From Gracilaria domingensis (taxonomy: Eukaryota; Rhodophyta; Florideophyceae; Gracilariales; Gracilariaceae): DNA of 64,000 nucleotides. Shown here piece after piece: positions 21,994 to 62,815 of the stretch; positions within the stretch are counted from its first letter, which is position 1; each line of letters begins with the position of its first letter. Location of the stretch: NCBI GenBank assembly GCA_022539475.1, contig VCMS01000081.1, forward strand, positions 118,905-182,904. The letters run 5' to 3'. A program made the position numbers and the translations under genes. The notes beneath the pieces are model-generated. The model was given only the letters and a program-made list of their open reading frames with translations, made no database searches and was not told the origin of the DNA.

Positions 21994-22008
21994 CGACTTC
22001 GAATTTTC

Positions 22009-26793: not shown

Positions 26794-26795
26794 CT

Positions 26796-45461: not shown

Positions 45462-45594
45462 GGGTACAGAAAATGCAAGTGTCAATGGTTTAGAAATGCT
45501 CTTGGAATTTGTTTCAAGTGCTACGATGCCTGTAATACTTAGCTATGATATGAGATCTCAGTAATAAGAGTGTCGTATATATCTCAATACCCTT

Positions 45595-46473
45595 TTATGA
45601 TTCATGGTGGTTTTTATCGTGCTGCTTTTCCTCGTAGCCGTACAACAGAGCCACCAACATAATTGTCGAATGTACATCCTCTACGCTTTCGAACAGGTTG
45701 TGTACTCCACCCGGGATACAATCTTCTTTGACGTGAACGCCGTACATGCCTACCTCATGCAAAGGCCCGTCGCTCAAAGCACTTCCGAACGTCACGACGT
45801 CATCCGTATCAATAAATCTCGGTTCATTATCCACAAGATTTTCTCCTCCGCTTCCTTTTGTGTATCGCTTGTCCACAATTTCGCAACTTTTATCGCCGGG
45901 ATAGATAACAAACGCATCCATCTTCTGCAACAGGTCCCCAATAGCAGAATCCACTTCTTCTCTCCACTGCCACAGTTTGTTGTACACGAAATTGGGAAGG
46001 CCACTATCACTTCTGGTCTCCACGAACCCCTTGTCATCATCATTCACAATACCATGCCTCCTATTCAAATCCCTTTCCAGGAACAGTAGTCCGACAATAG
46101 TGTGGTCAAGGGTGTGATCATTGAATGCAGCCTTAATTTCCCTCTCGTCAGAGAAACGGAGGAAAGCTCCATGATTCGCCGAGACACCAAACTTATAGTC
46201 TCCGAGTCCTTCCATTTTCCCCTCCACGTCACCCACATCACCGCCTGTGACAAGTCCGAAACCAACACGTTCGTCAATGAACTTCATACACTTCACAACT
46301 TCTTCTGGAATTGACTCTCCTTCTATTCTCAACGTTCCATCAACGGAACTTAATATACCGTAACCATTGGCATATATGAACTTAGACAAGGTATTGGGTG
46401 ACATTTCCGCCAAGTCTCTCTGTTCCTCTGCCATTTTCCTGATACAATCACCATACTGCCACAAGTACCGCAT
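45595..46473 (-). CDS. Trehalose-phosphatase-like HAD protein lacking the nucleophile
   Basis: An uninterrupted 292-residue frame with the trehalose-phosphatase arrangement: GYGILSSVDGTLRIEG, FGLVTGGDVGDVEGKMEGLG, FGVSANHGAFLRF, KMDAFVIYPGDKSCEI and VTFGSALSDGPLHEV. In HAD enzymes motif I is DxD; here it is SVD, so the nucleophilic aspartate is serine. The motif IV acidic residues are also changed. It is therefore probably not a phosphatase, although the fold looks intact. A second ATG (46434, MAEEQRDLAEMSP) is an alternative start. It converges with its frameshifted paralogue, 133 bp apart. Confidence 0.6.
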   Translation of the reverse strand: MRYLWQYGDCIRKMAEEQRDLAEMSPNTLSKFIYANGYGILSSVDGTLRIEGESIPEEVVKCMKFIDERVGFGLVTGGDVGDVEGKMEGLGDYKFGVSANHGAFLRFSDEREIKAAFNDHTLDHTIVGLLFLERDLNRRHGIVNDDDKGFVETRSDSGLPNFVYNKLWQWREEVDSAIGDLLQKMDAFVIYPGDKSCEIVDKRYTKGSGGENLVDNEPRFIDTDDVVTFGSALSDGPLHEVGMYGVHVKEDCIPGGVHNLFESVEDVHSTIMLVALLYGYEEKQHDKNHHES

Positions 46474-46769
46474 AGACAGGAACTGTATAGACTTCTCAGT
46501 TTCATACTTCTCTTAAAAGCAACCTTAAGTGCAGTTTCAGAAATGTTAGGACGCTACATGTTCAATTGCGAATTAACTGGTGCCACCAATGATGTTAACG
46601 ATACCGAGCATTTGGCATGTTGCAATTAGACGCAACTGGACCAAAGACGTTTGACATTTGTTCAATTACCAGCCTGCCGCACCTTTTCAATGTTCATATG
46701 TATAGCCTTGTAATAGTATACTACTCTTAATACTCGCAAGACACTCATAATTTACTAATCATCTCATTC

Positions 46770-49700
46770 TCATCCACTTCGAGGCGCTCGCAGCCTCATT
46801 ATTGGCAAATCGTCATCACTACTACTCTCGAGCACTTCGGTTCTACCGGCGTCCGCTTCCACACCAATCTCCACGACCACTTGGTCTTCGTCCATGTCAA
46901 CCGCCCCGACCTCTTTATCGGACAACAGTTCATCCTCCGCCTCTTCCTCCTCGTCACCATTGACAAACGTGGGTCGGAAATCCCGCACCCGATGAACAGC
47001 ATCAGGTAGTGCGTAGCCCTCTGGTACCATGTACATGTGGTATCTAACCAGCCAATCCATAGACTCGGGCCTATCCACCTTGTCCTTCCCACTTGCTCCA
47101 GCATGTGTCACATCACCACGGCCCACGAATACAGAGTACGGTGGGATGATTATCTTCTTCGCTGGATACACCTCCGACATCACTCGCAACTGTTGGTTGT
47201 TCATCCCCACCAGTTGATGGCTTCCAGCGCTCACCCAGAGAGGAAAGCCCTCTTTCCCAGAGGCCATTACAAAGTATCCGGGGTTGCCAGTATTCATTGT
47301 TTCCTTTGTAACCAGACCACTGAAGTCGGTGTGCAGCGTCTGGCGCTTGCACTTTCTCGTCGTCCCCAGAAATCGACCACCAGTTTTCGGAGTGTACATC
47401 TTCACAGCTTCCCTTTCATTGTCCCATTGTCCCAAAGCCGCAGCAATTGTACCCATTCGAACATCAAGTAAAGCACGCGACCTTACAACCCACCTGAGCT
47501 CCTCATTATCCTCCGGATTTTCCACCGTACCCCAACGTGTCGACATCACTCTCCCCCCAAATGGTCCATCGCTACCGTCCTTCCATCCTTCATCATCGTT
47601 GATTATTTGAACAAACGACTTCTGTTCCTCTCCTTTCCGTATATCCGGCATCGCTCCATACTCATTCTCGAAGAAGTCCACCAACTTCCCCGACACATCT
47701 CCGAACTCCCGAACTTCTTCCAACTCCTCCCATTTAGGGACACCATTATCCGTCGCAAAGCCATCAAGCACGCAATATCCTTTCTGCTTTAGCTCAGCTT
47801 GCATTCGGGCGAAGAAAATTTGCCCAAATTCGTCATGCTCCTTCGCAGCAACCCACAGCACCTCTTCATCATCCATACCTGTCGGTCGAGTACGAGGATA
47901 CTGCATACCAAATGTCTCCGCCCGTAGGCGATGTTCAGCCCTTGCAGCGTGCCAAAGGACAAGATGGTGTACATCTCTGAGATTAGAGACACTTAGCAGC
48001 TCCGACCTATGTCCCTTCGGCAAGTGAATGACTCTGAGCCAGGGATCCTTGTGCTCAATTACGTTCTTCCCTTGCCATTCCTGCGGTCTCAGCCTGGCAT
48101 ACCCGCACCATGATGGGTTCGGTGGGCCATCATATGGGTCTCCTCGAACAAGTCCGTGCTCCTCAGATTCCGGAAGAGCTGTAGGTAACTCGTCATCAAA
48201 TGACCCCCCACCTGTCTCTTGCTGATCGTCTGGCGCAGCATCTTTCACGACGGTGACAACCCGTGGAACTGTCACAGAAAGAAGCTCATCGTCATCCACA
48301 AATGCAGAACTGCCTGCGTTCTCTGCATTCGCTCCCTCTCCCAATGCCACGAACTGAACCTTCATCGACCTTCCTCTCAGCACATGTTCATTTAGTTGAG
48401 ACATCAGGTCATCCGGTGTCATGCTGTTCAGAGTAGATCTGATCTGTTGTGTGAAAGTCTTTCTCCGTTTCTTCCTCGGCGGAGTCCGCTGTTCTTCTTC
48501 AGAGCTATCCAGAACTTCTATGGCACCTCGATTTTGGCCGTGCTCAGTTTCCCTATAACTCACCTGTGCCCGTTCTCGTGCACTTCTTCGCGGCTCCCCT
48601 TCTTCACTGGCAGATGTTGCAGCAGCAGCAGCGGGAGTCCTCCTCTTCGTCACGGACTGCTTCACTGGTGCGGGGGGCGGAATTACCTTGAGCGTCGTCC
48701 GCAATCGATTCTGAACGGAAGTCGTGGCAATTCTAATTGAGTTCGTCCTGCTCCGAACACGCGGCAATGTGTTGAAGTTCACAAATTGTCCCAAAAGGAA
48801 CTGATACATAGCTGCGTTGTTGTCTGGGTCTTCAACGTCATCTTCATTCGATGGAGCAGAAAGACTGACTTCGCGTTTCAGGAACACTTCCATGGACTCT
48901 TCCTCGTTCAGTTCATTCCTCACTGCTCGAGCCGCGCGGAACAGAGACACTGCTCTATCATAAAAGAAACCTCGAACCTCCTCAAAGCTTTTCCATTGCT
49001 TTGTCTTCGTCGACTTGCCCTTCAATAGAAACATCTGAAGACAATCAAGAATGAAGGAAAACTCCTCGGCATCCAAAACATATAGCGGAGTATGGGACAG
49101 ATGTATGAGACCTATGTCACTCACACTCTCACATATATCCTCGAAATGGGCCAGCATTCCCTCACGAGACATGAGTTGCAGGACGACATTGGCATATCTC
49201 AGATACTGACGCTCTTGCACAGTCCCAATCAGTTGGCTCTCCTTGAACACTTCTGTCACTTCTGCAGGATCCACGTCTGCCGGCGTCACCCCCTCAACAT
49301 CTTCAGTTAGAATGGAGACCACACTAACTATAGAGTGTATCTTGTCTGCAAACATCATCCTTCGCATGGTACTCGTCGACTCATTGAGGTACAAAGCAAC
49401 ACATAACAATTCTTTCATCCCAATGGGCCTCCCATCTCTTCGTATCAGCAGATTGCAACGCCAAAACTCGGCTAATGGCTTCCACTTCGGTGCACCAGTC
49501 GCTGCCAAATATTGTATAGTTTTCAGACGATGCAAACCATCTACAATGAAGCACTTCTTCGTTAGGCGTCCCTTGTCAGTATCCCTCTCTCCCGTAGTAG
49601 CATCTTGTAAGGCCACCACTGGAGAACCCATCGACTGCAATATCCCCCGCTCCTCCATACTCTTCACAAGGGCTTCAACGTGGCGTTTACTTACTCCACG

Positions 49701-50687
49701 GAGTAAATTGGGCGGAGTGTCCACCAGAGTGATGTCAACAGTAACAACAACCATCCGGTACTGATTGAGGTTCACCTTTGGTACCTTCTGACGAATTCGT
49801 CTGTACGTCTTGCTCCGAGTAGGTGTCCCTTGTGTTCCAGACCGCTCGCCAGAAACACTTGAACGTGCCATTCTTGCGGACAGAAGCACAACGTCATCGT
49901 CCTGCTGCTCCGCAGTTTCTGGTGCAGTTTGGGGTACAGATGGACCAGCTCCTTGCGCGGATTGCGCATCCGCGTCTAGAAGGGGACCTTTCATGATCTC
50001 ATCTTCCTCCTCTTGCACAGCCGTCCCCTGCTGAACCGTCTGTTTCGACGCAGAAGATCCCCTTGTGTCGACGGTCTGATTCATCGCAGGAGAAGCCCTT
50101 TTCGACCCAGTGGGCTTCGTAGCGGTGGTAGACTTTGTTTGACCTGTCCGCTTCGTAGCTGGGGATGCTCTCGTCTCCATAGACCGCTTCGTAACAGACG
50201 ACGGACCTGCCTGCGGAGGTGCTACTGATGCGCTATCTCTCGGTGTTGATGAACTTCGAATTGGCTCCGTGCGGCTTGTCGGCGTCATCACCTCACTCAT
50301 AGCGCTTACCGTTCCTCGCTTGGACGCCGGAATGCTGGCTGCCACCGGTTCCATCATTTTCTCATCCCAAGGAGCGGCCGTCCGGAGATCCTGGATATAT
50401 TGTGGAAGATCCAGGCCCTCCGCCCGGTAAGGGTAGAACGTCTGACCGCTTCGACTGATGAGAATATTATGAACCACCACAAGACCTGAGTCCAATTGCT
50501 TCCCGTGCAACTCGCGGCGTAGAACACTTCCAATTTCATGCAGCAACGCTCCCCCGACTATCACCTTTCCTTCATTCTCAATATCCATCTGCAGAGAAAC
50601 CCGCATTCCACCTTGCAATAATCGAGTGCTCCGCCGAGTGCGAGGAGTCACGCTTTGCGTACGCTTTCGAACACGAGTTGGCTTCAT
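46770..50687 (-). CDS. ParB-like domain fused to a 2OG-Fe(II) dioxygenase-like domain
   Basis: A 1305-residue intact single-exon protein. Residues 1-100 are basic then globular; 110-300 are low-complexity Ser/Thr/Pro. Residues about 310-460 resemble the ParB/sulfiredoxin fold: LLRGVSKRHVEALVKSMEER, GILQSMGSPVVAL, then KKCFIVDGLHRLKTIQYLAA, where ParB proteins have G(E/D)RR. A helical region follows (470-600) and a second basic linker with nuclear-signal-like RKKRRKTF. The C-terminal 950-1230 looks like a double-stranded beta-helix dioxygenase: H1119 and D1121 (KRQTLHTDFSG), distal H1195 (VFVGRGDVTHAGA) and R1215 as a likely 2-oxoglutarate ligand. The tail is acidic. It is divergent from the methyltransferase unit and next to the palindrome array. 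Which substrate it oxidises (DNA base, protein or other) cannot be told. The ParB call is moderate, the HxD...H call somewhat stronger. Confidence 0.7.
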   Translation of the reverse strand: MKPTRVRKRTQSVTPRTRRSTRLLQGGMRVSLQMDIENEGKVIVGGALLHEIGSVLRRELHGKQLDSGLVVVHNILISRSGQTFYPYRAEGLDLPQYIQDLRTAAPWDEKMMEPVAASIPASKRGTVSAMSEVMTPTSRTEPIRSSSTPRDSASVAPPQAGPSSVTKRSMETRASPATKRTGQTKSTTATKPTGSKRASPAMNQTVDTRGSSASKQTVQQGTAVQEEEDEIMKGPLLDADAQSAQGAGPSVPQTAPETAEQQDDDVVLLSARMARSSVSGERSGTQGTPTRSKTYRRIRQKVPKVNLNQYRMVVVTVDITLVDTPPNLLRGVSKRHVEALVKSMEERGILQSMGSPVVALQDATTGERDTDKGRLTKKCFIVDGLHRLKTIQYLAATGAPKWKPLAEFWRCNLLIRRDGRPIGMKELLCVALYLNESTSTMRRMMFADKIHSIVSVVSILTEDVEGVTPADVDPAEVTEVFKESQLIGTVQERQYLRYANVVLQLMSREGMLAHFEDICESVSDIGLIHLSHTPLYVLDAEEFSFILDCLQMFLLKGKSTKTKQWKSFEEVRGFFYDRAVSLFRAARAVRNELNEEESMEVFLKREVSLSAPSNEDDVEDPDNNAAMYQFLLGQFVNFNTLPRVRSRTNSIRIATTSVQNRLRTTLKVIPPPAPVKQSVTKRRTPAAAAATSASEEGEPRRSARERAQVSYRETEHGQNRGAIEVLDSSEEEQRTPPRKKRRKTFTQQIRSTLNSMTPDDLMSQLNEHVLRGRSMKVQFVALGEGANAENAGSSAFVDDDELLSVTVPRVVTVVKDAAPDDQQETGGGSFDDELPTALPESEEHGLVRGDPYDGPPNPSWCGYARLRPQEWQGKNVIEHKDPWLRVIHLPKGHRSELLSVSNLRDVHHLVLWHAARAEHRLRAETFGMQYPRTRPTGMDDEEVLWVAAKEHDEFGQIFFARMQAELKQKGYCVLDGFATDNGVPKWEELEEVREFGDVSGKLVDFFENEYGAMPDIRKGEEQKSFVQIINDDEGWKDGSDGPFGGRVMSTRWGTVENPEDNEELRWVVRSRALLDVRMGTIAAALGQWDNEREAVKMYTPKTGGRFLGTTRKCKRQTLHTDFSGLVTKETMNTGNPGYFVMASGKEGFPLWVSAGSHQLVGMNNQQLRVMSEVYPAKKIIIPPYSVFVGRGDVTHAGASGKDKVDRPESMDWLVRYHMYMVPEGYALPDAVHRVRDFRPTFVNGDEEEEAEDELLSDKEVGAVDMDEDQVVVEIGVEADAGRTEVLESSSDDDLPIMRLRAPRSG

Positions 50688-50756
50688 GTTGAACAGCTAT
50701 TGCAGTGAAAGGTGTATATCAACAATACGCTCGCTCTGGACGATACAAGAACGGAT

Positions 50757-50838
50757 GCGAGCCTTTAAATGGCGACTTACGCTGGGCACCCCCGCTTTCG
50801 GCAGCTCCTCCCAGCGCACTGCCAGTCTCGTCCGTGTC
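50757..50838 (-). promoter_or_regulatory. Shared promoter block, left copy
   Basis: About 80 bp nearly identical, in opposite orientation, to 51946-52033, with only about six differences. It includes GGCACCCCCGCTTTCGGCA and a TATA-like TTTAAAT at 50764. It lies upstream of the ParB-dioxygenase gene start (50687). Confidence 0.7.
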
Positions 50839-51042
50839 CTGTCCGTGGCCGCTCGCACGCTGCTTGTACGCTTTAGAGTCGTGGAGTTCGCGCAATGATG
50901 ACTCACGCGAGCAATGGTCGCGCTCTCTAATCATGCTCTTCAAATGCTTTGCATAGTAGTCAAGAGTACACTCATTCACTTCCATGTACAGCCTACTCCC
51001 GCCAATACACGTGGACAGCGGCGGCAACGTACCGGCGGCCGG

Positions 51043-51810
51043 GTGTAGCGAAATCACTGCGGGGCGGCGTGTTTTGGGAGGTCCCGGGAAGGCGCCGGAA
51101 TGTGGCCATTTTATGCCCGCGGGCGGGGCGGGTCGGTCGTGTTAGAGTAGGTACCCTAACACGACCGGACCCCCCCGCCCGCGGGCATAAAATCGCACAT
51201 TTTTCAAAAAATCGCCCAAAACTTGCCCGCGGGCGGGGGGTTCCGGTCGTGTTAGGTTACCTACCCTAACACAAACCACCCCCCCCCCCCCCCGCCCTCG
51301 GGCACGTTCTGGCCACATTCTGGCGCCCTCCGGAGACCTCCCAAAACACACCTCCCGGCACTTTCTGTACCCACTGCGTCACCTCAGTGCACCATCCCGT
51401 CTTCTCCACCCTCCAGACACTCCCTAATTTCAGGGATGGTGCACTGAGGTGACGCAGTGGGTACAGGAAGTGCCGGGAGGTGTGTTTTGGGAGGTCTCCG
51501 GAGGGTGCCAGAATGTTGCCAGAACGTGCCCGCGGGCGGGGGGGGGCGGGGCCGGTCGGTCGTGTTAGGGTAGGTACCCTAACACGACCGGAACCCCCCG
51601 CCCGCGGGCATGAAATCGCACATTTTTCAAAGAATCGCCCAAAACGTGCCCGCGGTCGGGGGTGTCCGGTCGTGTTATGGTACCTACCCTAACACGACCG
51701 AACCCCCCCCCCCCCTCCGCCCGCGGGCACGTTCTGGCCACATTCTGGCACCCTCCGGAGACCTCCCAAACACTCCTCCCGGCACTTCCGGCAGTGATTT
51801 CGCTGCACAC
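51043..51810. repeat. 768-bp inverted repeat containing four palindromes
   Basis: The arms (51043-51398 and 51433-51810) are inverted copies around a 34-nt spacer. Outer ends read GTGTAGCGAAATCACTGC and GCAGTGATTTCGCTGCACAC. Each arm contains GCCCGCGGGC blocks and two copies of a roughly 32-bp palindrome built from GTCGTGTTAGGGTA and its mirror, at about 51131-51165, 51244-51274, 51556-51590 and 51668-51698. A central segment is itself inverted between arms. No target duplication is obvious. It may be a foldback/MITE insertion, a replication or partition site, or an operator array. Confidence 0.85.
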
Positions 51811-51945
51811 GCCGTGCACATATATCAAACTAGAGAAAACTAGCGCTTCACACTCACTTGATCCGCCACTTTTAGCCCAATACGCGACCTTTGCAATAGC
51901 TCCGAATCGCGACGTGGCCGACATGCGACGCTATCGCACCGAGCG

Positions 51946-52033
51946 GACACGGACAGGGACGAGATTGGCAGCGCGCTGGGAGGAGTTGCCGAAAGCGGGG
52001 GTGCCCAGCGCAAGTCGCCATTTAAAGGCTCGC
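51946..52033 (+). promoter_or_regulatory. Shared promoter block, right copy
   Basis: The inverted counterpart of 50757-50838. Here the TATA-like ATTTAAA is about 35 bp before the first ATG (52056) of the methyltransferase unit. The conservation suggests coordinated transcription of the two divergent transcription units. Confidence 0.7.
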
Positions 52034-52055
52034 CTTTGTTGTATGCGCTGAAGCG

Positions 52056-52805
52056 ATGGATTCCACCGATGATGGAGAGGAGATACAGCCTATTGACATG
52101 AGTGCTCCGCCTCCGGCGTTCCATGCATATGTCAGACTTGTCTTGGTTCTTCGCGATGCTTTGGCAAACAGCGATGGAGGCCCTGATCGGCCACGGGACG
52201 TGGGGTTTAGAGGGCTAATAGAGTTCTGCGCCGAGAACTATAAGGATATTCCGGAGGCAAGGAAAATGTTTGAGGAGGCCACTAACTCCAAGAACCTGCA
52301 GAACTTGACACTGCAACAGCTGCGAAAGAGTGTTGTGAATAACAAACCTGTGGAACAACGATATCTTGTAACGAAGCTTCTTGACAAGAAAGACGGGGAT
52401 GAGTACCAGAGACGCCGCGATTTTTTCCTTCTCTCTATGGATATGGGTATATACCCACTGGTGCGATGCCTGGTTGGTTATTTCATGACCAGGAGAAAGC
52501 AGGTTCTGAAGACGACAGTGTTCATCCCACCAACAGCTGTGAACCCATTTGAGGTCGTTATATACTTATCATACCTCGGCCACAAAATGGGAGAGAACGA
52601 CAACATCCGAATGATGAAGAAGAAACAACCGAAAAAGAAACGAAAATTGAACCATGCACCATCTGTGTACATACCCACTTTTACGTCGTTCTCCAAAGAC
52701 AACTGTGATCGACTGGGATTCGCTATCAGTGAGGTCGTATGGGCATGGAGTTGTTTTGCGGCTCATCTTGGATACACGAACGTTCAGCATATGGTGAAAC
52801 CATAA
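52056..52805 (+). CDS. Unknown N-terminal domain of the methyltransferase-SET reading frame
   Basis: Not recognised as a family. It has 249 residues, alpha-helical in character (RLVLVLRDALANSDGGPDR, EARKMFEEATNSKNLQNLT, RRRDFFLLSMDMGIYPLVRC), with a basic patch (KKKQPKKKRKL) that could be a nuclear signal. It ends in TAA at 52803-52805, and exactly two codons later the methyltransferase ATG follows in the same frame. It may be a separate protein or the N-terminus of a larger one divided by a stop. It sits directly downstream of the shared promoter block. Confidence 0.6.
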   Translation: MDSTDDGEEIQPIDMSAPPPAFHAYVRLVLVLRDALANSDGGPDRPRDVGFRGLIEFCAENYKDIPEARKMFEEATNSKNLQNLTLQQLRKSVVNNKPVEQRYLVTKLLDKKDGDEYQRRRDFFLLSMDMGIYPLVRCLVGYFMTRRKQVLKTTVFIPPTAVNPFEVVIYLSYLGHKMGENDNIRMMKKKQPKKKRKLNHAPSVYIPTFTSFSKDNCDRLGFAISEVVWAWSCFAAHLGYTNVQHMVKP

Positions 52806-52811
52806 ATTTAC

Positions 52812-54500
52812 ATGAATATGCAGACGTTGAAGTATACGGCGCTAGAGACACGGGAGTCTGGTTATACAGACCTCGAAACCGTATGCACCCACGATAGCCT
52901 CTATAGCTTACGGGCTGATCAGATGAGGAACTGGATAGAGTTTTCGGAGATACGGATGGATACCGTATCTGGTTCTGACTCCGGTGAGTTGCCTGCTCGA
53001 TTTCAGAAGTTTTCGGAGTTGCTATGGAAACCGATACAGAATATGCGTCATGCGGCAGGGTTCCATGTCGGCATTCACGCGAAACCTGATATTGAGCTGA
53101 CGAAAACCCCTAAAACTTCCGGTAATGCCGAACCTTCTTCGACCAAGTCTGCCCCACCCCCACCTCGTCGAGAGTATATGAACCTCGTGAGCTCCGATAG
53201 CGACGACTTCGAGAAGCCGGTGAATCTTGCGGAGCATGAATCTCGGGTTGCCGGTTACAACATCCAAAAGACTGGTATTGAGCCGCCCATGAAGGGGATA
53301 TCCAGTCTCCTTCGAATGAATATGGACAAGGTGTGGAAGGGGATGAGAAATTCACACTTTGTAGCGTACAACTGTGACATGAAGGACCTAAGGCACACAC
53401 ACGAAACGTTTGTGAATCAGAGTGAGATTTTATGGGGTGAGGCACAGCTTGTCCTAACAGACCCTCCCTTTAACACTCGAAGGAAGAGGAACAAACGGAA
53501 TAGTGCTCACGATGTCTTCAGTGAGGATGACATGATCCGTACGGCTGACTTAATAAGTTCCGCGCTTCGGTCAGGTGGGCATTTCATTATATTCTGTGCC
53601 ATGGCACAGTTTCATGTTTGGCACAGGATACTTTCGGAAACGGCGAGTACGAAGGATGAAGCTGGAAGCGAAGGTAAACCAGAACTCACGCCTTCGTTTA
53701 AATTGGATGCGAATCCACTGGTGTTCATCCGGGATCGAAGTAATGTTGGAGGGAATCCACGGAAGTTTGGGATACAGCCCGTAACGGAGTACGCCGTTCA
53801 TGGGGTGAATCGTGGATTGCGACCATCGGAGGAAGCCAGTCTTACTCCATTTGAGGAGAACACTTTCATTCCTTCTACTTTCCCGGCTAACAGGAATGTA
53901 ATTGACCGGGTGCCAAAACCGAGAGCGGGGGAGTGGTTGACATGGAAGGTACATGAGCCAGGTAGTTCAGTACCAGGTGGGCAGTACATAAGACCGGAGC
54001 AGAAGTCCAGGGAGTTGATGAAAGAGTTGATATGTCGCTTCACAAGACCGGATGATCTTGTCATGGACATGTTCGCGGGAACTTTTTCTACGGGTATGGC
54101 GTGCCTATCGCTGACAAAGCATAGGAAGTTCTTGGGGCGCGAGAATAATAGGCCATGTTTCAGCCATGCGAAGCACCATATAACGACTCTTATGGCCGAA
54201 GTTATTCGCGGGGGGAAGAATGACATCCTGGTTGAACAGGAGGTGGTGGATGCGGCTTCAACGACTTATGAACGAGTTCCCTATCGAGACCGAGGTCGGC
54301 TTGAATGGGAGGCTCCATTTGGTTACCCCCAGTACCAAGTGATGCCTGGACATATTACTCAGTTCCTAGGAAGATACTGGAAGGACTGGGACTTTGTCGA
54401 CAAGTGTGGACAGCATACTGTACATCTTTGGGAGGAGAAGTACCGAGGAGCTCTGAATCTAATGGATATGCATATGCTGTTGACTGTTGAAGCCAATTGA
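52812..54500 (+). CDS. Beta-class DNA amino-methyltransferase (N6-adenine or N4-cytosine type)
   Basis: A 562-residue protein with bacterial/phage-type amino-MTase motifs in the circularly permuted beta order. Motif IV comes first, LVLTDPPFNTRRK (DPPF at 217-220), followed by a motif V-VI-like LRSGGHFIIFCAMAQ. A long variable region (about 270-390) would hold target recognition. The SAM-binding motif I comes near the end, DDLVMDMFAGTFSTGMACL (FAGTFSTG at 421-428), preceded by a motif X-like QKSRELMKELICRFTRP. Residues 1-170 are an extra eukaryote-like region with a Ser/Asp patch. Such MTases use AdoMet to methylate the exocyclic amine of adenine or cytosine. The gene lies in frame between an unknown domain and a SET domain, separated only by stop codons. 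Confidence 0.8.
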   Translation: MNMQTLKYTALETRESGYTDLETVCTHDSLYSLRADQMRNWIEFSEIRMDTVSGSDSGELPARFQKFSELLWKPIQNMRHAAGFHVGIHAKPDIELTKTPKTSGNAEPSSTKSAPPPPRREYMNLVSSDSDDFEKPVNLAEHESRVAGYNIQKTGIEPPMKGISSLLRMNMDKVWKGMRNSHFVAYNCDMKDLRHTHETFVNQSEILWGEAQLVLTDPPFNTRRKRNKRNSAHDVFSEDDMIRTADLISSALRSGGHFIIFCAMAQFHVWHRILSETASTKDEAGSEGKPELTPSFKLDANPLVFIRDRSNVGGNPRKFGIQPVTEYAVHGVNRGLRPSEEASLTPFEENTFIPSTFPANRNVIDRVPKPRAGEWLTWKVHEPGSSVPGGQYIRPEQKSRELMKELICRFTRPDDLVMDMFAGTFSTGMACLSLTKHRKFLGRENNRPCFSHAKHHITTLMAEVIRGGKNDILVEQEVVDAASTTYERVPYRDRGRLEWEAPFGYPQYQVMPGHITQFLGRYWKDWDFVDKCGQHTVHLWEEKYRGALNLMDMHMLLTVEAN

Positions 54501-54548
54501 TATCGCTTACATATAGCATCTTCTAAGATTCGACATCCCCGTGCTGGT

Positions 54549-55067
54549 ATGGGGGTGTTCACGGAACATAAGATATTGGCTGGGGAAACTATCTGTCATT
54601 TTTATGGAACTTTGGTATACACGGATCTGACGAACCGGAAGGAAAGACACTTAACGTATGGAAGTGGCTGTCTCGGAGCAACTCCAGTGCGGTACAAGTT
54701 GTTTTCTATGATGGTCACTGTGACTGGTACGGAGTTTCTGCACCTGAGAAACAGACCAGGACAGGGTCAGGATAGAAAGGAGAGCGAAGTCTACATTGTC
54801 CCGGCGCCTTTTTGTATCGGGGGCTACATTAACGACGCCGGATATCATGCCGGGGATCCCGATTTATCGGAGCCCCGGTCAAACAGGACTCGAAGTGCCA
54901 ATGTGCAGGTGGTGGAAGCGAAGTCCGTGATACAGTTTAAGTCCGACCTTCCTAACTATGCTCTACTTCGTTGTAGAGCAGTAAGAGATATTGAGAGGGG
55001 CGAAGAGTTGTATTTCAACTACGGAGAGCAGTACGCCTGGGACTGGGCTCTGACATTGGAGCAATAG
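54549..55067 (+). CDS. SET-domain protein lysine methyltransferase-like
   Basis: It has 172 residues from the first ATG, containing most of a SET domain: GVFTEHKILAGETICHFYGT, GGYINDAGYHAGDP, RSANVQVV in place of the RxxNHSCxPN box, and DIERGEELYFNYGEQYAWDW with the catalytic-region ExxFxYG. The frame is open upstream of the ATG for 16 codons back to the methyltransferase stop (TGA 54498-54500). Those codons (IASSKIRHPRAG) are the expected SET N-terminus before GMGVF. So the ATG probably does not mark the true start, and the domain was once or still is translated together with the methyltransferase. Pre- and post-SET cysteine clusters are absent. Confidence 0.75.
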   Translation: MGVFTEHKILAGETICHFYGTLVYTDLTNRKERHLTYGSGCLGATPVRYKLFSMMVTVTGTEFLHLRNRPGQGQDRKESEVYIVPAPFCIGGYINDAGYHAGDPDLSEPRSNRTRSANVQVVEAKSVIQFKSDLPNYALLRCRAVRDIERGEELYFNYGEQYAWDWALTLEQ

Positions 55068-55311
55068 ATGAGTTCAGTACCGAATAGAAAGTAAATATGC
55101 TTGTGAATGTTGCGGCTGCCTGCAATACGCGTTGTTGTACATGTACACTGGAGCTCTTCATCTGTAAAGGCGATATTTGCGACCCATTGGGCACCTAAAA
55201 TTCCTAAAAAGCAGGAACTGCGGAGTCTCCCGGAATATCTGAACCATGCACCCCCCCTCACCCCTTCCCCCCCCAACAATTTCGTTTCATTACCCCGTTT
55301 ATCTCCACAAC
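55068..55311. promoter_or_regulatory. Short intergenic region before the coiled-coil gene
   Basis: A 244-bp gap with a C-rich run (CCCCCCTC, CCCCCCCC) just before the next ATG. No motif named. Confidence 0.3.
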
Positions 55312-57291
55312 ATGGGTATAACGCCGAGAAAGCGAAATAGTACGCAGCGGAACAAGAGTGGACAGAAGAAGAGAAGAGCATCGGATGATACGAATCAGGC
55401 TACAAGCACCGCACTTCCTAAACGGAAGTCGTCCTCGACGAAGGAGAGAGTCAGTGGGCATCCTTCTACAGTACTCTCTCGCCCATCTCGCAGCGGAGCG
55501 TCTTCCGGGATTGCGTCAAGAATTCGTGGATCAGCGAACGATGTCGTGCCGTCAACTGTAGATAATGCAGATCGTGCATCTGTCTCTGCTCCTCAAGAAG
55601 ATGAGGTAACTCGGCGCAGCGGGTCAGGACAGGAGGGCATCGCAACTGGAACTGAAGAGGTTCGTATGACACCAAAACTTTCATGTCCCCGGCCGATATC
55701 GAAAACCGGAGCTACTGGGGCGCGGGTTACGCCGCCCAGTGGATCTGGACAACAAGGGACAATGACGAGAAGTCGTGAGAGCCCTAGTATATTAAGATCG
55801 TCACGTCCATCCCTGTCTTCTAGAACTGGGGCCGCTATGAATCGTATCATGCCTCGCAATGGGTCCGGACAAGGGAGAAAGACAATAAGAAATCGAGAGA
55901 CAACTGATAGAAGAGTTACTCCTCGATCTTCCCCTCTTTCCAGAACGGGTGCCGTTGCAGCTCGTACGAGGCCTAATTCATCTGATATACCATGCCATGG
56001 AGGAGGCCAGACACGGGAGTTGGAGCTCGGAGCCGTGCCAAGGGTGGACACAGAACGCCTGCAGCCTCTCGTGTCTAAGGGTATGGCACATGAGGATAGT
56101 TCCGATAACGAAATAACACCGAATCCTGCGGCATTACCGGGGCCTATCGCCGAAGAGGCTAGGGAAATACCGGAAGATATCCACACTGGTGTGAAATCAA
56201 CCTCTATGAACAGACGTGATCTTTTAAATGAACTGAATTGCTTGAAAGAAAAGGTTAAGACGCTACAAGAGGACTTGATAGTTCGGGGTATTCTAGTGAA
56301 GGTCGCCCAAGAGCAGAGTACGGCTTTGAAAAAGAGGCTTGAAGAGAAGGATCTAGTCATTGAAGGGCTAAGAGGGGCACTGAAACAGGAGGGAGATAGG
56401 AGTACACGTGCTGGTGAACCTGGGCAGACATGTCGAAAGAAGCATAAAATTGAGGTGTACGACGAGTTTCGAGGGGTTGCTCGAGCAATGTATCACAACA
56501 TGCTCACGTGGGCAAGGAGAGAAACAAGTGAGCTATGGCTCGAAGGTGAGTGGCTCACCCGAAATTGGGGTAACCGTGCCGAGAAGGTGGAAGACGCAAC
56601 TGAGAGTGGGGAAGGGCTTATTGAGCCGGAGGAAGGTGGTTCATACATGGTTCCTAAAAACCCCGTGGAGCTCTTGGGTAGTTTTGGCATGTTCAAACCG
56701 TCGGTAGAGGGGGGGTCAGATGCTTTGCTGAAGAAAATGGTTGAAAGCGAGTTGAAGGAGTTGAGCTGGGAAGGTATTAGAAAAGCATCTCTTACCGACA
56801 GGTGTATACTGGAACTTTGTGGAGATATTTGCCTTAGGCAGAGAATGCGGCATACCATGAGTGACGTCGTGGGCGTTCGTAAGAGAAATACGAGGGATAA
56901 ACTATTTCTGCTCCTGGGGTACGATCTGATTTGGAGAAGAACAAAACTGGTAGAAGAGAATGCTGACGAACTCACAATGCAGTTGAAGGAAGCGCAGGAG
57001 AACATACTGCGTCTTGACGAAAATGGAGTACCGAACACTTCATGGTGGAGAAAAGCCCCATTTGTTCGTCTAAAGTACTCCAATGCGGACAATGTCGAGG
57101 ATATGCCGACGGAAGATCAAGACTTGTTCTTCCGAAACCGTGTCGGGGTACAAGTACTGAAGGAGTTTATTGGGTATGATGTGGAAGACAAGGATACGGG
57201 CACCTTTTTAGATGGCAAAATATGTGGTCGATGTTTGTTGCGGGGGGTAAAACCTCGAAATACCGGACGAATGCCACCTCTGGTGCGGTAA
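55312..57291 (+). CDS. Large coiled-coil protein of the composite element, unknown function
   Basis: 659 residues from ATG 55312 (MGITPRKRNSTQRNKSGQKK); an in-frame ATG 22 codons upstream gives a proline-rich start that I think unlikely. The N-terminal half is basic and low-complexity with a repeated unit of about 45 residues (RSGSGQEGIATGTEEV, PSGSGQQGTMTRSRES, RNGSGQGRKTIRNRET). The middle has a coiled coil (LLNELNCLKEKVKTLQEDLI, KKRLEEKDLVIEGLRGALKQ). The C-terminal 250 residues are helical and conserved-looking (YDEFRGVARAMYHNMLTWAR, CGDICLRQRMRHTMSDVVGV). Its 3' end overlaps the transposase gene by 125 bp, tail-to-tail. It could be a transposase accessory or DNA-binding partner. Confidence 0.65.
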   Translation: MGITPRKRNSTQRNKSGQKKRRASDDTNQATSTALPKRKSSSTKERVSGHPSTVLSRPSRSGASSGIASRIRGSANDVVPSTVDNADRASVSAPQEDEVTRRSGSGQEGIATGTEEVRMTPKLSCPRPISKTGATGARVTPPSGSGQQGTMTRSRESPSILRSSRPSLSSRTGAAMNRIMPRNGSGQGRKTIRNRETTDRRVTPRSSPLSRTGAVAARTRPNSSDIPCHGGGQTRELELGAVPRVDTERLQPLVSKGMAHEDSSDNEITPNPAALPGPIAEEAREIPEDIHTGVKSTSMNRRDLLNELNCLKEKVKTLQEDLIVRGILVKVAQEQSTALKKRLEEKDLVIEGLRGALKQEGDRSTRAGEPGQTCRKKHKIEVYDEFRGVARAMYHNMLTWARRETSELWLEGEWLTRNWGNRAEKVEDATESGEGLIEPEEGGSYMVPKNPVELLGSFGMFKPSVEGGSDALLKKMVESELKELSWEGIRKASLTDRCILELCGDICLRQRMRHTMSDVVGVRKRNTRDKLFLLLGYDLIWRRTKLVEENADELTMQLKEAQENILRLDENGVPNTSWWRKAPFVRLKYSNADNVEDMPTEDQDLFFRNRVGVQVLKEFIGYDVEDKDTGTFLDGKICGRCLLRGVKPRNTGRMPPLVR

Positions 57292-60214
57292 GTGCAGAAT
57301 CAAGGAGAGATATTCGAATCACAGCGACTACCTGGGCAACCCAAGTCTCTGAATCTTCTCCGCTTACCAATACAGTGGAAAACTTTGGCTTTCTACTGGG
57401 GCCAAATGCTGGAGAAGCGAAGACACGTTGGATGATGGGGTATTTGGGTCGTCCCAGCTTAAGTGCCTTAGAAGACGAATCGAAGTGTTCAAGAGTCGGA
57501 ACGAAACCGCCTTTCACGAGAGCCGAATTCACCAGAGTTATCCTTGTCTTTTCTGGGAAGTATGTAATAGAGTGCTCATCCAGTGTTTCTTTCACGAGAC
57601 TGAGGAAAGGAGGAAGGGCCTGCTCACCAATTTGATCAAGAATCGACCTTGTGTCCGTACTTGAGAACATCTCTCTAACAGCAGTCCATGTTTTTGAACT
57701 GGACATACTTGAAACACAATGTTGAAGAGCTCGTAAAGTGAAAGAACGCCCTCTCATTGCAAACCGAGGAAGCTGTGTGGAAGTTCCTGGTAAACCTGGA
57801 TTACGCTGGTAAGGAGTATTGCCATTCCATTGCTTTCTAACATGTCGGTGCTCAATGGAGCGAATAGTCTCCTCCACAGCCGTTGCTGTTCTTCTGGACG
57901 TCTTTTTGTAGTGTCTCTTAAATAGCAGGTGTGCATGTTCGTATATGCCTGCGTCGTAGTACTTGATACTTCCCAGACGGCGAATATCGTCCACGAGATG
58001 ATCGAGAAGATGAAACTTCAGAGTTCCCAGTCTGGAGGGATGAAAATCCGCCAGAGTCTTTGTTGCGGAACGCTTGAAGGCTTCAATCTCCGATATAAGA
58101 CACAGGAGAGAGCTTTCAGTCCAATACGGGTCACGATTGTATCTGAATAAAGTCGAGAGCAAGTCCGAGTACTGAGAGAAAACGGTTGTGATTGGGGCAA
58201 CGTCCTGTTCTCCACAGCATATGTCAAAGAATGCTCCTATGAAGGGGAAGACCATGTCAAGTGTTTTGTAGTTTTTGGCCTCCAGCATTCCACGGAGACC
58301 GTCTTTCGTGAAGATGCCATTCAAAGATTTGCCTTTCTCCTGCGTGGAGAAATCGATATGTAAACCTTTGGCAGGAGAATCACGTTCTATGGCAGCTAGA
58401 ATTGCGTTTGCATGGTTGAGGAGTTGGGTGCGTATCGTTCGAAATGAACGCGATGCAGATGTTCCTATTGTGGTGCACAGGGTGTCTGTCTGCAGTCTCT
58501 CGATTGTGGCCGTTTTTATCAGCTTTGAGATGCCGAGATGCAAGTTGTGTAATGGTTCGAATGAGAACAGACTGTATGGAGACAATCCCGGGATCATTCC
58601 AAGGCTTACGGAAGTTTCGAGGAACGAAGGAATGAGAGATATGGAATTTGAACGCATCAGAGTATCCGCTTGAGATCTCCTCTCCCTCGCACGACGTGGA
58701 CGTCTTTCCGCCTCGTCTTTTTGTGCATGTTGCAAGATAGCTGTGTATGTCTTTGGGATGCTTTTCGTGTGCTTTTGAGAACGTCCGTTGAATGAGGTGG
58801 GAATAGGACTGCATAAAGATGAGCGAGGGGCTTTGCATCTATGACACGGGCTTTCCGTTTTGGTCCCATGAAGAATGTACAGAATGTCCTTAGCCTCAGA
58901 AATATCCGCACAATAACTTGCAAGCAGAGGATGGCACACTCGACTTAGTTTGCCTTCGCCGATGAACTGAAAACCTTTCTGCTTGAGATTTAGAATGGGC
59001 TCCAGGACTTGACGAAGAGATTCTTGAAGGATTTGCATCCTGGACTCGCGTAGAGACTTGCTAGAAACGAATGGCATTGCGTCTGCTTCAGATGCGGAAA
59101 CCTCGATCAGTGTGGTAGGGAAGTATGCCACTACTGTGAGGTCATCACGGATGCACTTACCGCGAAGCTCGTCAGAGAAGTTGAGAAATATGAGGTGAAG
59201 AGGATAGGCGGTAACCGATGTTTGCTTTAGAGTTGTTGAAGACTTATCGGTGTATACCTGCAGAAGACCTACGAAAGATTCACTGTAACTTATTTCTTGG
59301 GAGTACCATACTATTCTACTATCCAAAGAGCCCATGACCATTTCCTTAAGTTTTGAGGTGGCGTCTCTTGCGAGAGAGCCGGACATGGGGTGAGATAATT
59401 TCATGGAGTGGGTCTGAGGTATAGGGTGGAAGAATGTGTTTTCGTTGTTAGCCAACTGGAGCTGTTTCACAAGTGTCTGAACGGGGTCTCTCGTGTAGAG
59501 GGTGGCGCTGAACTTACATCCTTCTGGCGAGACAGTTCTGCGATTGAAACCGTCCTTTGAGGCGTATCGTTCGAAAATGGCGTTCTTCAGTTCTGTACAG
59601 CGCTTGGAACTTGTTATGGTCTCGTTGAATCGCTTTTGCGAGGATCGCGGGTCCCGAAGTAGCCCAATTAGCTCGTCCGCCTCACGATGACCAAGGTTGG
59701 AAGCTACTGAAGCCAGACAAACCGTGAGATAATCCATATGCAAATCACCAAGGGCCTCCTCAGAAGGCACTGGGCGGGAACTGCTTCCGTGTTCTCGCTC
59801 TAATGACGCGGGACTCGGGGAAGGAGAAACACAATGCGAAGTGTCCGGAATGGGAGGGGCGCACGGAGTGGGGTCGACGATGTCCTCGGACACCGGAGGC
59901 TCGGGAAGGCGACAAGGGGCAGTGACCGTTTCGGAAGATGCGGGGGCGGGCGCGGAAACCTTGAGACGCTTGCTTCTCCGAATGGGCCGGCTATTGTCGT
60001 CTTCCAGCGCTGCTTTCAGACGAAACGGGCAATGGTTGACATGCTGTTGAAGAGATAAGACTCCTCGGCGAGTAACGAAGGGGCACCCACGCTTCTTATG
60101 TGTACAGTAGTAGACCATGGGAAGAAGAAATGAACGAGAAACGACGACAAAGACTGCAAGGGAAGGTTGTAAGAAGGGAGAAGGAGGTCGAGCGACAGTC
60201 AAGATCGACGTCAT
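57167..60214 (-). CDS. Plavaka/KDZ-superfamily DDE transposase
   Basis: An intact single-exon frame of 1015 residues. The first 32 residues are hydrophobic and doubtful; the ATG at 60118 (MVYYCTHKKRGCPFVTRRGV) is a good alternative, opening directly on a zinc-finger-like motif (C-x6-C...H-x3-C). The RNase H-fold core is visible: VYTDKSSTTLKQTSVTAYPL (D323), then SYCADISEAKDILYILHG (D437), a zinc pair SPCHRCKAP, and FEPLHNLHLGISKLI. The late block KFHLLDHLVDDIRRLG, YDAGIYEHAHLLFKRHYKK has the E...H and Lys/Arg helix of the family. These blocks match Plavaka and related KDZ transposases in order. Intactness suggests recent activity. The position at the end of the block fits a transposon-encoded enzyme. 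Confidence 0.7.
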   Translation of the reverse strand: MTSILTVARPPSPFLQPSLAVFVVVSRSFLLPMVYYCTHKKRGCPFVTRRGVLSLQQHVNHCPFRLKAALEDDNSRPIRRSKRLKVSAPAPASSETVTAPCRLPEPPVSEDIVDPTPCAPPIPDTSHCVSPSPSPASLEREHGSSSRPVPSEEALGDLHMDYLTVCLASVASNLGHREADELIGLLRDPRSSQKRFNETITSSKRCTELKNAIFERYASKDGFNRRTVSPEGCKFSATLYTRDPVQTLVKQLQLANNENTFFHPIPQTHSMKLSHPMSGSLARDATSKLKEMVMGSLDSRIVWYSQEISYSESFVGLLQVYTDKSSTTLKQTSVTAYPLHLIFLNFSDELRGKCIRDDLTVVAYFPTTLIEVSASEADAMPFVSSKSLRESRMQILQESLRQVLEPILNLKQKGFQFIGEGKLSRVCHPLLASYCADISEAKDILYILHGTKTESPCHRCKAPRSSLCSPIPTSFNGRSQKHTKSIPKTYTAILQHAQKDEAERRPRRARERRSQADTLMRSNSISLIPSFLETSVSLGMIPGLSPYSLFSFEPLHNLHLGISKLIKTATIERLQTDTLCTTIGTSASRSFRTIRTQLLNHANAILAAIERDSPAKGLHIDFSTQEKGKSLNGIFTKDGLRGMLEAKNYKTLDMVFPFIGAFFDICCGEQDVAPITTVFSQYSDLLSTLFRYNRDPYWTESSLLCLISEIEAFKRSATKTLADFHPSRLGTLKFHLLDHLVDDIRRLGSIKYYDAGIYEHAHLLFKRHYKKTSRRTATAVEETIRSIEHRHVRKQWNGNTPYQRNPGLPGTSTQLPRFAMRGRSFTLRALQHCVSSMSSSKTWTAVREMFSSTDTRSILDQIGEQALPPFLSLVKETLDEHSITYFPEKTRITLVNSALVKGGFVPTLEHFDSSSKALKLGRPKYPIIQRVFASPAFGPSRKPKFSTVLVSGEDSETWVAQVVAVIRISLLDSALTAPEVAFVRYFEVLPPATNIDHIFCHLKRCPYPCLPHHTQ

Positions 60215-60914
60215 GCTGAGAACGGAGAATATATTTTGAGTTTAAATCACGTGCTTTCGTTCAAAAAGGAACGTAGGTACACGTCGACCTCAACACAAGG
60301 GTGTACTTCTCGTATTATCTACCACTGGTTATAAACCTGTGGTTTCGCAACATTGTAGGCTGTACACTTGTCCAATCTCGCACAGAAAAATGAATCTCTT
60401 CCCTCCGCCGCCGCCGCCGCCCGTCCGACGTCCGACCTTCTGTTACCGTCGTGATCCGTGCCATCCACATCCTCGCGTTATACTCCGCTCCGTCCTTCTT
60501 TTTTCCTCCCTCTACCTTATGGAGGCTCCTTAAAGTACAGGGCGGAAAAAAGTAGGACGGAGTCATCCGTATCTCACGGATGTATTCCGTGCAGTCTATT
60601 CGTACGTTCTTCCATATCCTTCCACGTATCTTTGCTCTAAACTAACCAATCCTCACCACGTTTCTTCGCGCTCTGCGACATGCAAACGGCAGGAAATAAG
60701 TTTTCACCCTCAACTTCTTCTATTTGCCCAAGATATAGAACGAGTTGAAGGGTGAAAACGGGAACCCGGTAACCCAAAGCGACGACTGTAAGTACGCGAA
60801 CAATGGTTCATTTCGTTGCGCCATAGGCTCTAGCTTCGCCTCTTACGCTCCTTTTCAAAAGTAGCGCAAGACGCGAGAAGCTAGAGCCTACTGCGCAACA
60901 AACCAAGTTGGTTT
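60215..60914. other. Hairpin-bearing intergenic region, transposase promoter side
   Basis: This includes the likely transposase promoter. Two inverted repeats stand out: GTTTTCACCCT at 60700-60710 with AGGGTGAAAAC at 60749-60759; and 60815-60837 (GTTGCGC, TAGGCTCTAGCTTC) with 60877-60899. No gene seen. Confidence 0.6.
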
Positions 60915-60920
60915 CTTAGC

Positions 60921-61650
60921 GATCTTGGATCTCTGAGTGTTCGGGATAGACGATTCTGGTACTTGGTTGGGACATAGGCTGCTCTCTCGTTTATCGCATC
61001 TTGCGTTATGTTTGCTGCATGGGCATTATTGGTGTCCTTGCTTGTGAGTTCTCGCTTCGACACCTTTCGCGCTTCACGATTAATGATTTGCTGGTAATCT
61101 AACCAATCCCTTTCCTTCTTCTTCTTCCTTTTGCGAGTTACTAGGTCCCTCGACTTTTCTAGCGCAACGTTTCTGTTTTGTTTTATCAATGGTACGTTCC
61201 ATCGCATTTCAAACGTACCCAACGGAGAATTGACTAACTTATGGATACTTTCTGCTTGCGTATACAGGTAAATGACCAATTTCATTTCGTCTCTCAAGAT
61301 CGATGTCTGACTGTTCGAGATAGGCGATTCTGGTGCTTGGTTGGGACATAGACTGCATTCTCGTTTATCGCATCTTGCGGTATGTTTACTGCATGGGCAT
61401 TCTTGGTGTCGTTGCTTGTGAGTTATCGCTTTCAAACCTCTCGCGTTTTACGATGAATGGATTGCTGGTAATCTAACCGATCCCTTTCCTTCTTCTTCTT
61501 CCTTTTGCGGCTATTAGGTCCCTCGAATTTTCTAGCTCAACGTTTCTGTTTTGGTTTATCAATGGTTAGTTCCATCGCATTTCAAATGCATTCAACGGAG
61601 CATTGACTAACTTATGGATACTTTCTGCTTGCGTATACAGGTAAATGACT
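60921..61650. repeat. Tandem duplication of a roughly 360-bp unit, period 373
   Basis: Copy 1 (60921-61277) and copy 2 (61299-61650) share long blocks such as CCCTTTCCTTCTTCTTCTTC and GCTTGCGTATACAGGTAAAT. GTATAC starts at 61260 and 61633. Differences are scattered, with roughly one in ten bases changed by eye. A minus-strand frame (61435-60881) reads through copy 1 and reads like protein (DEMKLVIYLYTQAESIHKLV, ERAAYVPTKYQNRLSRTLRD), so the unit may come from a coding sequence. Confidence 0.85.
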
Positions 61651-61686
61651 TTTGATGCGGACGTAGCTCACGAGTTGCAGGTGCAG

Positions 61687-61823
61687 GTTCCTCAAGTAGG
61701 GAACCATGCATCTCGGCATGGTTCCCTACATGAGGAACGGAGAGGATGAGACGCTTCGCGCCTCATCCTCTCGGAGTGCGTATTTGTTCTACCGATACCG
61801 CCCTCTGCGGCATCTGCCGCAGA
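61687..61823. other. Cluster of three consecutive hairpins
   Basis: Hairpin 1 has 23-nt arms, 61687-61709 and 61716-61738 (GTTCCTCAAGTAGGGAACCA...), with one mismatch and a 6-nt loop. Hairpin 2: GAGAGGATGAG (61740-61750) with CTCATCCTCTC (61762-61772). Hairpin 3: TCTGCGGCA (61804-61812) with TGCCGCAGA (61815-61823). No terminator or RNA family recognised. Confidence 0.8.
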
Positions 61824-62200
61824 TTGCGCCTACACCCGCTCCATCATGGGGAAATGGTACATGTAATATAGCGAAGTAGTGGTTAGCAAAAGCGGTCGAT
61901 AGAAGAGTAGATACGAATAAAACGGTATGATTTCATAATGGACATCATCTGTACTAGCAACAGTATTCCATGCGTTGCAGGGTATCATTCCGCAGAAGGT
62001 ATCGTGTAATGTGCACCTTAATGGAAACTGAACCTAGACTTCGCGAAATACCGTTCAGGTAGCCCTCGACTAAAGAACTGGCACGAGTGGAAAACTCACC
62101 AGTATTTACTGCACAGCGATTCTGGACGACCCAAGCAATTATCTTCAAATTTTGAAATAATTGATCTCGATATTTTTTCAAAAAATTTACTGGACGACCC
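61824..62200. other. Short region before the LINE fragment
   Basis: Contains CTGGACGACCC at about 62112 and 62192 (third copy near 62212). A minus-strand frame (62180-61954) reads faintly like protein (VNFLKKYRDQLFQNLKIIAW) but is not recognised. Confidence 0.3.
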
Positions 62201-62803: not shown

Positions 62804-62815
62804 AATACTATAGCG

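Follow-up and report, generated by a model that had tools for sequence, protein, structure and literature searches.

Our analysis of a 64,000-nucleotide stretch of the Gracilaria domingensis genome (contig C81:118905-182904, hereafter the window) strongly supports, at the level of sequence, the presence of one mobile element with a predicted writer enzyme, in which genes for a DNA methyltransferase (MTase) joined to a SET domain and for a ParB-like protein with a putative dioxygenase half accompany a Plavaka-type transposase. The original prediction, made from the letters of the window, had combined five neighbouring transcription units into one transposon at 46770..60214, without outer terminal repeats. 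The motifs, domains and residues named for the five units are present, as judged by Pfam matches and translated motifs, but the bounds had to be corrected to 40668-62254 by sharp common ends, and outer inverted repeats do exist, as do 2-bp target duplications. Both common ends and target duplications were found by aligning other genomic copies, the check that had been proposed, and the claim of a single element is supported by collinear copies, by sharp ends with differing flanks and by a copy on contig C8 that carries a duplication.

Ends, copies and target duplications

The genome searched comprises 77.9 Mb in 680 contigs. Patterns for the two ends of the element were searched allowing at most 2 mismatches, with positions listed for the first 100 places per end, and both are highly repeated (Table 1); the backward control patterns for the left and right ends had 0 genome matches each. 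The termini read CGTCTG..CAGACG and form imperfect inverted repeats in which 12 of 15 bases pair. No subterminal 8-mer is common to both ends, although both do have GCTAGTTTT(T)GG. On the right, a sharp stop at 62254 is seen in the window and in five copies, with unrelated DNA beyond it, and on the left a sharp stop at 40668 is shared by the window, two C257 copies and one C218 copy. End pairs 22.3-24.3 kb apart are present elsewhere in the genome.

Ten copies on ten contigs, of which 14-20 kb each were compared, align to the window in long collinear blocks, mostly at 95-98% identity. They are not all whole, since the C296 and C465 copies run into inverted copies upstream, as does C257, the C264 and C192 copies have other DNA to the left of the palindrome array that separates the two divergent genes, the C164 copy lacks the coiled-coil gene and the C465 copy stops matching at 56.9 kb. 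The window copy itself lacks about 762 bp near 57222 that most of the other copies read contain.

Flanks were read for 28 left-right pairs taken from the listed ends, and one of these (C57), which skips another left end, was dropped, leaving 27 proper pairs. An exact 2-bp target duplication is present in 15 of the 27; shuffled flanks gave a mean of 2.4 duplications with a largest value of 9, and 0 of 20,000 shuffles reached 15. No flank match of 3 bp or longer was found among the 28 pairs. All 12 pairs at 10-11 kb have the duplication, as do 1 of 6 at 11-20 kb and 2 of 3 at 20-21.5 kb. The C6 pair (21.3 kb, with duplication) shows transposase and right-end sequence where full copies have the MTase, followed by DNA unlike the window. 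Between the ends of the C8 pair (20.1 kb, with duplication) lie the palindrome array, the sequence of the MTase-SET region 52056-55344 in the same order, and a Plavaka match. This copy, in which the MTase-SET frame is broken, is the only one to place array, MTase-SET and transposase match within one insertion.

These data also bear on the possibility that the region is not one unit, but several separate elements piled together or a product of misassembly in repeat-rich DNA. None of the 6 proper pairs measuring at least 22 kb has the duplication, and adding C57 to them gives 0 of 7. Many genome matches are located only a few kb from where a contig begins, which means that contigs frequently break off within the repeat. 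The copies on C71 and C81 have only one flank in common, the C71 copy sharing the window's broken interior and right flank but having a different left flank, and at least one of the two, as read from these flanks, joins different loci, by assembly or by recombination. Chimerism of this kind is a likely cause of the missing duplications in the longest copies. The collinearity of ten copies on ten contigs in the same order, the spacing of four end pairs at 22.6-22.9 kb (C34, C23, C5 and C29) and the contents of the C8 copy speak against separate elements or misassembly, an explanation that we consider very improbable. A pure assembly artefact was considered and rejected.

Table 1. Features of the element, in positions of the window
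Feature	Position	Strand	Basis or remark
Whole element, degraded copy, 21.6 kb	40668..62254	.	common ends in copies with different flanks; collinear copies
Left terminal inverted repeat CGTCTGTGTTCTGCA	40668..40682	+	573 genome matches, 26-base left-end pattern
Open reading frame (ORF), 333 aa	41137..42138	-	no confident family; weak coiled-coil-type Pfam matches alone
ORF, 173 aa	43151..43672	+	no Pfam match; 300-415 codons in three other copies
ORF, HAD-IIB hydrolase match	44473..45264	+	E 1.9e-5
ORF, weak HAD hydrolase match	45595..46512	-	E 4.8e-4, slightly short of Pfam cut-off
1305-aa protein, ParB-like domain (DGLHR) and C-terminal putative 2-oxoglutarate (2OG) dioxygenase (HTD...H...R)	46770..50687	-	frame open in window
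90-nt inverted repeat, left arm	50750..50839	.	91%; just upstream of ParB-dioxygenase gene
Palindrome array between divergent genes	51040..51811	.	sites GGTCGTGTTAGGGTA..TACCCTAACACGACC, up to 3 mismatches
Four palindrome sites	51135-51166, 51245-51276, 51558-51589, 51668-51699	.	32 bp each
90-nt inverted repeat, right arm	51951..52040	.	just upstream of MTase-SET gene
N-terminal region of MTase-SET protein	52056..52805	+	ended here by TAA
Beta-class DNA amino-methyltransferase domain (DPPF, FAGTFSTG), predicted	52806..54500	+	Pfam, motifs
SET domain	54501..55067	+	in frame with MTase in intact copies
Coiled-coil protein gene	55246..57291	+	no Pfam match (scanned from 55312); often 820-870 codons elsewhere
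Plavaka transposase, C-terminal part lost in window	57167..60214	-	PF18759, E 7.7e-15
349-bp tandem duplication beside right end	60928..61649 (60928-61276 / 61302-61649)	.	90% identical
Right terminal inverted repeat CGTCTGTCTCTTGCA (as read on - strand)	62240..62254	-	563 genome matches, 25-base right-end pattern

Genes of the element and the palindrome array

Pfam searches of the adjacent window frames matched N6_N4_Mtase (PF01555, E 1.9e-13) and SET (PF00856, E 8.4e-9). The two domains had been taken for products of separate genes; the domains stand, but the separation does not, as elsewhere in the genome they lie in one 1055-codon frame together with the short protein that starts at 52056. 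This frame is open as a single unit in 3 of 8 loci examined and free of internal stops in 9 of 78 genome matches, and a SET match is listed on the same strand downstream of at least 60 of 94 A-type MTase matches, at a median of 387 bp. In the window the frame is broken by a TAA at 52803-52805, a deletion of about 126 bp at 52865/52866 and a TGA near 54498.

Within the MTase frame, DPPF (residue 219) precedes FAGTFSTG (residue 423). The closest solved structures in a PDB profile search were DpnA, CcrM, MboIIA and RsrI, with an unnamed methyltransferase lower, and the two best NCBIfam matches are adenine-specific. All four are bacterial adenine enzymes. By motif order and relatives, the MTase part belongs to the beta class and is of N6-adenine type, the methylated base being a prediction. 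The PF00856 match places the other part among SET-domain lysine methyltransferases, with a predicted activity, and weak PDB profile matches to KMT2C, KMT5A and EZH2 were obtained. An epigenetic writer composed of an adenine-type MTase and a SET domain is therefore a plausible prediction for this protein. A library of 5.8 billion proteins yielded 14 MTase(-SET) homologues, 26-43% identical, 9 of them with a precomputed SET domain; DPP and further motifs are invariant in all 15 rows of the alignment.

The divergent gene codes for a protein in which the HxD...H dioxygenase signature and the ParB-like motif were predicted to be joined, and both do occur in one frame, the former as HxD...H...R. The ParB-like part gave a weak match to PHROG ParB (E 0.0026 over 43 residues) and one to Pfam GmrSD_N at E 0.22. 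Four relatives (P0017-P0020), 28-38% identical, retain the ParB-dioxygenase architecture, with DGLHR or DGQHR present, HxDF in all four and the distal H and R in three, P0017 ending before them. Two G. domingensis database proteins, P0015 and P0016, are 93% and 87% identical to the window protein, and a further profile-based homologue search returned just these two. The names that they carry (Mediator subunit 15-like; SasA) do not fit the domains, and both models skip the dioxygenase core. Pfam gave no Tet_JBP match in the 1308-codon ParB-dioxygenase frame at E values as high as 1, and a PDB profile search with the C-terminal dioxygenase part had no match at E 1 or 10. AlphaFold models from five-row alignments had a mean predicted local distance difference test score of 40 (ParB-dioxygenase, 1000 aa) and 36 (C-terminal 371 aa), too low to be used.

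The transposase is a 1100-codon ORF in other copies. Its match to PF18759 scores above the cut-off, and the family has at least 123 matches in the genome. With the Met at 60214 as residue 1, the catalytic residues D323 and D437 are where the original prediction put them, and a C(2)C motif is present as CHRC 20 residues past the second catalytic D. The core had been called intact; the two residues are there, yet the C-terminal part of the transposase is lost in the window copy. Plavaka is related to EnSpm, not to KDZ, and its target duplications are 2 or 2-3 bp long, whereas those of the KDZ element Zisupton are 8 bp, according to the available portions of Kojima 2025 (PMC12730594). The exact 2-bp duplications agree with Plavaka, and the link to KDZ made at the outset was not supported, with no KDZ family match and no flank match of 3 bp or more to set beside the 8 bp of Zisupton; a KDZ element was considered and rejected. 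The fungal termini TGT..ACA or CATCA..TGATG are not those of this element. Judged by sequence, it has a Plavaka-type transposase, but its termini set it apart from PlavakaA and PlavakaB as a separate lineage.

Large size and DNA-modifying genes also recall giant-virus inserts, and distant relatives of the MTase are found on IMG/VR contigs. However, the 55 matches of the MTase alignment in IMG/VR are just 21-51% identical and cover mostly the short MTase core, Pfam scans of 10 element frames gave no match to capsid, polymerase or packaging families, and the region combines a Plavaka transposase with short inverted repeats and 2-bp duplications. A scan of prokaryotes likewise gave distant MTases alone. 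An endogenous virus or virus-derived element in place of a transposon is thus extremely improbable, and this identity was considered and rejected.

Between the starts of the ParB-dioxygenase and MTase-SET genes lies a GC-rich stretch that contains the palindrome array. With both 11-base arms exact, the palindrome pattern has 882 sites in the genome and its control has 0. The first 50 sites are all within 25 kb of a listed element end, a weak observation by itself because ends are dense, and at least one exact palindrome occurs in 11 of 14 paired elements on C1-C16, with none in the other 3. The array is kept in both of the derivatives that we read, L216 and L070, despite the loss of MTase-SET and dioxygenase, and because they retain it without the enzymes that it would drive, we infer that the array may be a cis-acting site.

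L216 (C19, 10.3 kb, with duplication) is the element with large internal deletions. What remains is 3.5 kb on the left, the beginning of the ParB gene, the array, the greater part of the transposase gene and the right-hand part; MTase, SET and dioxygenase are gone. L070 (C32:313160-323159, 10.1 kb) is a more diverged relative that has both ends together with an array and a portion of the transposase; its match to the start of the MTase-SET gene is limited to 164 bp at 67%, and the dioxygenase is also absent. It carries foreign DNA, including a 375-base piece (bases 1799-2173) present at 40 places in the genome with 91-100% identity. Read from its translation, this piece is phytoene-desaturase-like and looks like gene capture by a CACTA-like element. 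Copies with only one of the genes had been named as evidence that would count against a single element. Copies with part of the genes do exist, but the two that were read, L216 and L070, have the appearance of deletion derivatives, either of this element or of a relative, rather than of independent single-gene units.

Four further frames at 41137-46512 belong to the element, two of them HAD-hydrolase-like and on opposite strands, and the motif GRGRIGTML in the 43151..43672 frame suggests NAD binding. On the right, the element abuts frames 62165-62803 and 62780-63562, which were read as retroelement pieces, so that the window copy sits among other repeats; frame 62165-62803 has no Pfam match. 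The window also contains a probable long terminal repeat retrotransposon at 16326-28151, where direct repeats 95% identical to each other surround integrase and reverse transcriptase frames.

Possible role of the predicted marking enzymes

We propose, with moderate confidence, that the element marks itself in a way that keeps its copies active. The transposase would cut and paste the units bounded by the CGTCTG ends, and the palindrome array would work as both a cis-acting site and a two-way promoter, which the ParB-like half of the divergent protein may bind or sense. The MTase-SET protein would deposit N6-methyladenine (6mA) and a lysine methyl mark at the array, and these marks would keep it open and the element transcribed, in what amounts to anti-silencing. 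The dioxygenase half could tune or remove a methyl mark, and deletion derivatives that have the ends and the array would ride along in trans. A more ambitious form of the proposal is a private 6mA-based chromatin state for hundreds of copies, with a double writer aimed at the array by a ParB-like partner with an eraser, in a host that lacks recognisable cytosine methylation, and with derivatives exploiting the arrangement; we find this possible, but rather doubtful.

With respect to the host, no match to the C5 cytosine methylase family (PF00145) was found in the genome, some stretches of which are masked, and the same search matched 10 of 14 control genomes, all of them prokaryotes. The same kind of genome search does find matches for PF01555, PF18759 and PF00856. 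Since the host genome has no C5 methylase match, erasure of 5-methylcytosine is an unlikely job for the dioxygenase. CpG decay was looked for as a sign of 5-methylcytosine in the host, and no striking CpG excess was apparent by eye in copy-specific changes. Genome searches for Tet_JBP and MT-A70 carry no weight, as neither matched any control genome.

Selection on the genes gives a mixed picture. Variants common to at least 2 MTase-SET copies are enriched for synonymous change (26 of 52, against 0.25 expected; p 8e-5), with the sampling caveat that 10 of the 15 rows tested were taken from the head of a protein-ranked list, a choice biased towards synonymous change. A second sample was drawn of eight copies chosen via the coiled-coil gene, of which one was masked, three were cut by contig ends and four were used. 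Singletons in these four are synonymous in 8 of 25 cases, indistinguishable from neutral (p 0.27), and each of the four, all fully readable, has a broken MTase-SET frame. In the coiled-coil, Plavaka and ParB-dioxygenase genes, changes among copies show no excess at third positions. No copy read has every gene intact. Of ten other stretches, none has the full ParB-dioxygenase frame open, two of them having no such gene and one starting inside it; the dioxygenase assignment is putative, made at the level of motifs only, and its substrate is a guess, as is the direction of the mark, active or silent. Together with the absence of SET beside a second type of MTase, described below, with the scarcity of duplications in pairs of 11-20 kb and their absence at 22 kb or more, and with the mismatched left flanks of C71 and C81, these points weigh against self-marking as we propose it.

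Neighbour counts for MTase, SET and Plavaka rest on the matches listed, including 129 typed MTase matches, and are lower bounds. B-type MTases make up 32 of the 129 and are set apart mainly by profile boundaries; we infer that they form one family. A convergent Plavaka match lies downstream of at least 14 of the 32, at 5.5-8 kb (13 of these at 5.5-5.9 kb), and of at least 18 of the 97 non-B MTases. Among the matches listed, 33 of 40 MTase-Plavaka neighbours within 15 kb are convergent with Plavaka downstream. No SET match is found beside any of the 32 B-type MTases among the matches listed, and SET is therefore not essential to the MTase-Plavaka layout. Examples of a B-type MTase with another Plavaka variant are found at C12:68428-75424, C22:687175-694182, C247:75803-82790, C277:56834-63832 and C399:6462-13693. 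A third type is represented by three MTase-SET ORFs of 1169-1170 codons on contig C382 (at 10484, 36683 and 110684), all three with SET downstream.

The recurrence of the convergent layout in this second MTase-Plavaka set is relevant to the view that the MTase-SET, dioxygenase and HAD genes are passive cargo, passengers without a role in the life of the element. L070, with its foreign phytoene-desaturase-like DNA, gives an example of such cargo, and the many broken frames and the missing third-position excess are in line with it. On the other hand, the MTase(-SET) protein is conserved in its 14 homologues, and its shared variants are enriched for synonymous change, with the caveat given above; we hold passive cargo to be quite improbable.

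Another alternative is self-restraint, in which the MTase-SET protein silences or times the element, much as Dam methylation controls the timing of Tn10 transposition in bacteria, and so keeps copy number tolerable; the array would then serve as a self-repression operator. The palindromes between two divergent genes do look operator-like, and many copies are short or broken, which would follow from restraint of the intact ones. The family has nevertheless multiplied, as over 560 matches to each end show. Self-restraint is in our estimation unlikely, and self-marking that maintains active copies is the reading that we carry forward.

Relation to known transposons and DNA-modifying enzymes

No recognisable paper on a Plavaka element with MTase, SET, ParB or dioxygenase genes, or on a red-algal Plavaka, appeared in the open-licence literature, as far as its searchable parts go. 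The mean length of the element is 14.3 kb over 47 pairs among the listed ends, and some 560-570 elements of this length would amount, as a rough estimate, to about 8 Mb, roughly a tenth of 78 Mb, so that the family could account for some of the repeat content of red algal genomes. In Chondrus crispus, En/Spm (CACTA) families of 16-20 kb with 4-5 ORFs have been described (Kojima et al. 2013, as cited in the available part of PMC6431247). They resemble the Gracilaria element as large, CACTA-related elements with several ORFs in a red alga, a likeness of description and not of sequence, and possibly belong to the same group. Giant Plavaka repeats of Amoebidium are another case of large size; according to excerpts of PMC11244446 many of their genes are tyrosine recombinases, with matches in dinoflagellates or red algae, and these excerpts mention no MTase-SET.

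Bacterial-type DNA amino-methyltransferases have been found in eukaryotes before, joined to a chromatin-related domain, as in N4CMT of bdelloid rotifers. N4CMT is a host gene with a chromodomain fusion, which makes N4-methylcytosine and marks transposons, as stated in the accessible text of PMC8885841, whereas the algal MTase is carried by a transposon, has SET as its fusion partner and looks like an adenine enzyme. DNA transposons that have incorporated a SET histone methyltransferase gene are represented by HarbingerS and MuDR of Phytophthora (cited in PMC12730594), which belong to other transposase superfamilies and for which no DNA methyltransferase fusion is mentioned in the portions of that article available.

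The closest parallel is offered by fungi, where TET/JBP genes occur in Plavaka and other transposons (Kojima 2025, PMC12730594, in the part available). Like the algal element, the TET/JBP-carrying PlavakaB of Agaricales combines a Plavaka transposase with neighbouring DNA-modifying genes, has 2-3 bp duplications and is proposed to escape silencing. As far as the same portions of PMC12730594 describe PlavakaB, the algal element differs from it in its CGTCTG..CAGACG ends, which are neither TGT..ACA nor CATCA..TGATG, in its enzymes, an adenine-type MTase-SET and a ParB/putative 2OG protein with no Tet_JBP match, and in its host, a red alga whose genome gave no C5 methylase match. A defined role and target for adenine methylation in a multicellular eukaryote, where 6mA is disputed, would become testable with this element. 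Transposons that carry erasers of DNA marks, such as fungal TET/JBP, or SET genes are already known, and a fused DNA-adenine and SET writer beside a ParB-like/putative dioxygenase gene and an operator-like array would be their writer-type counterpart.

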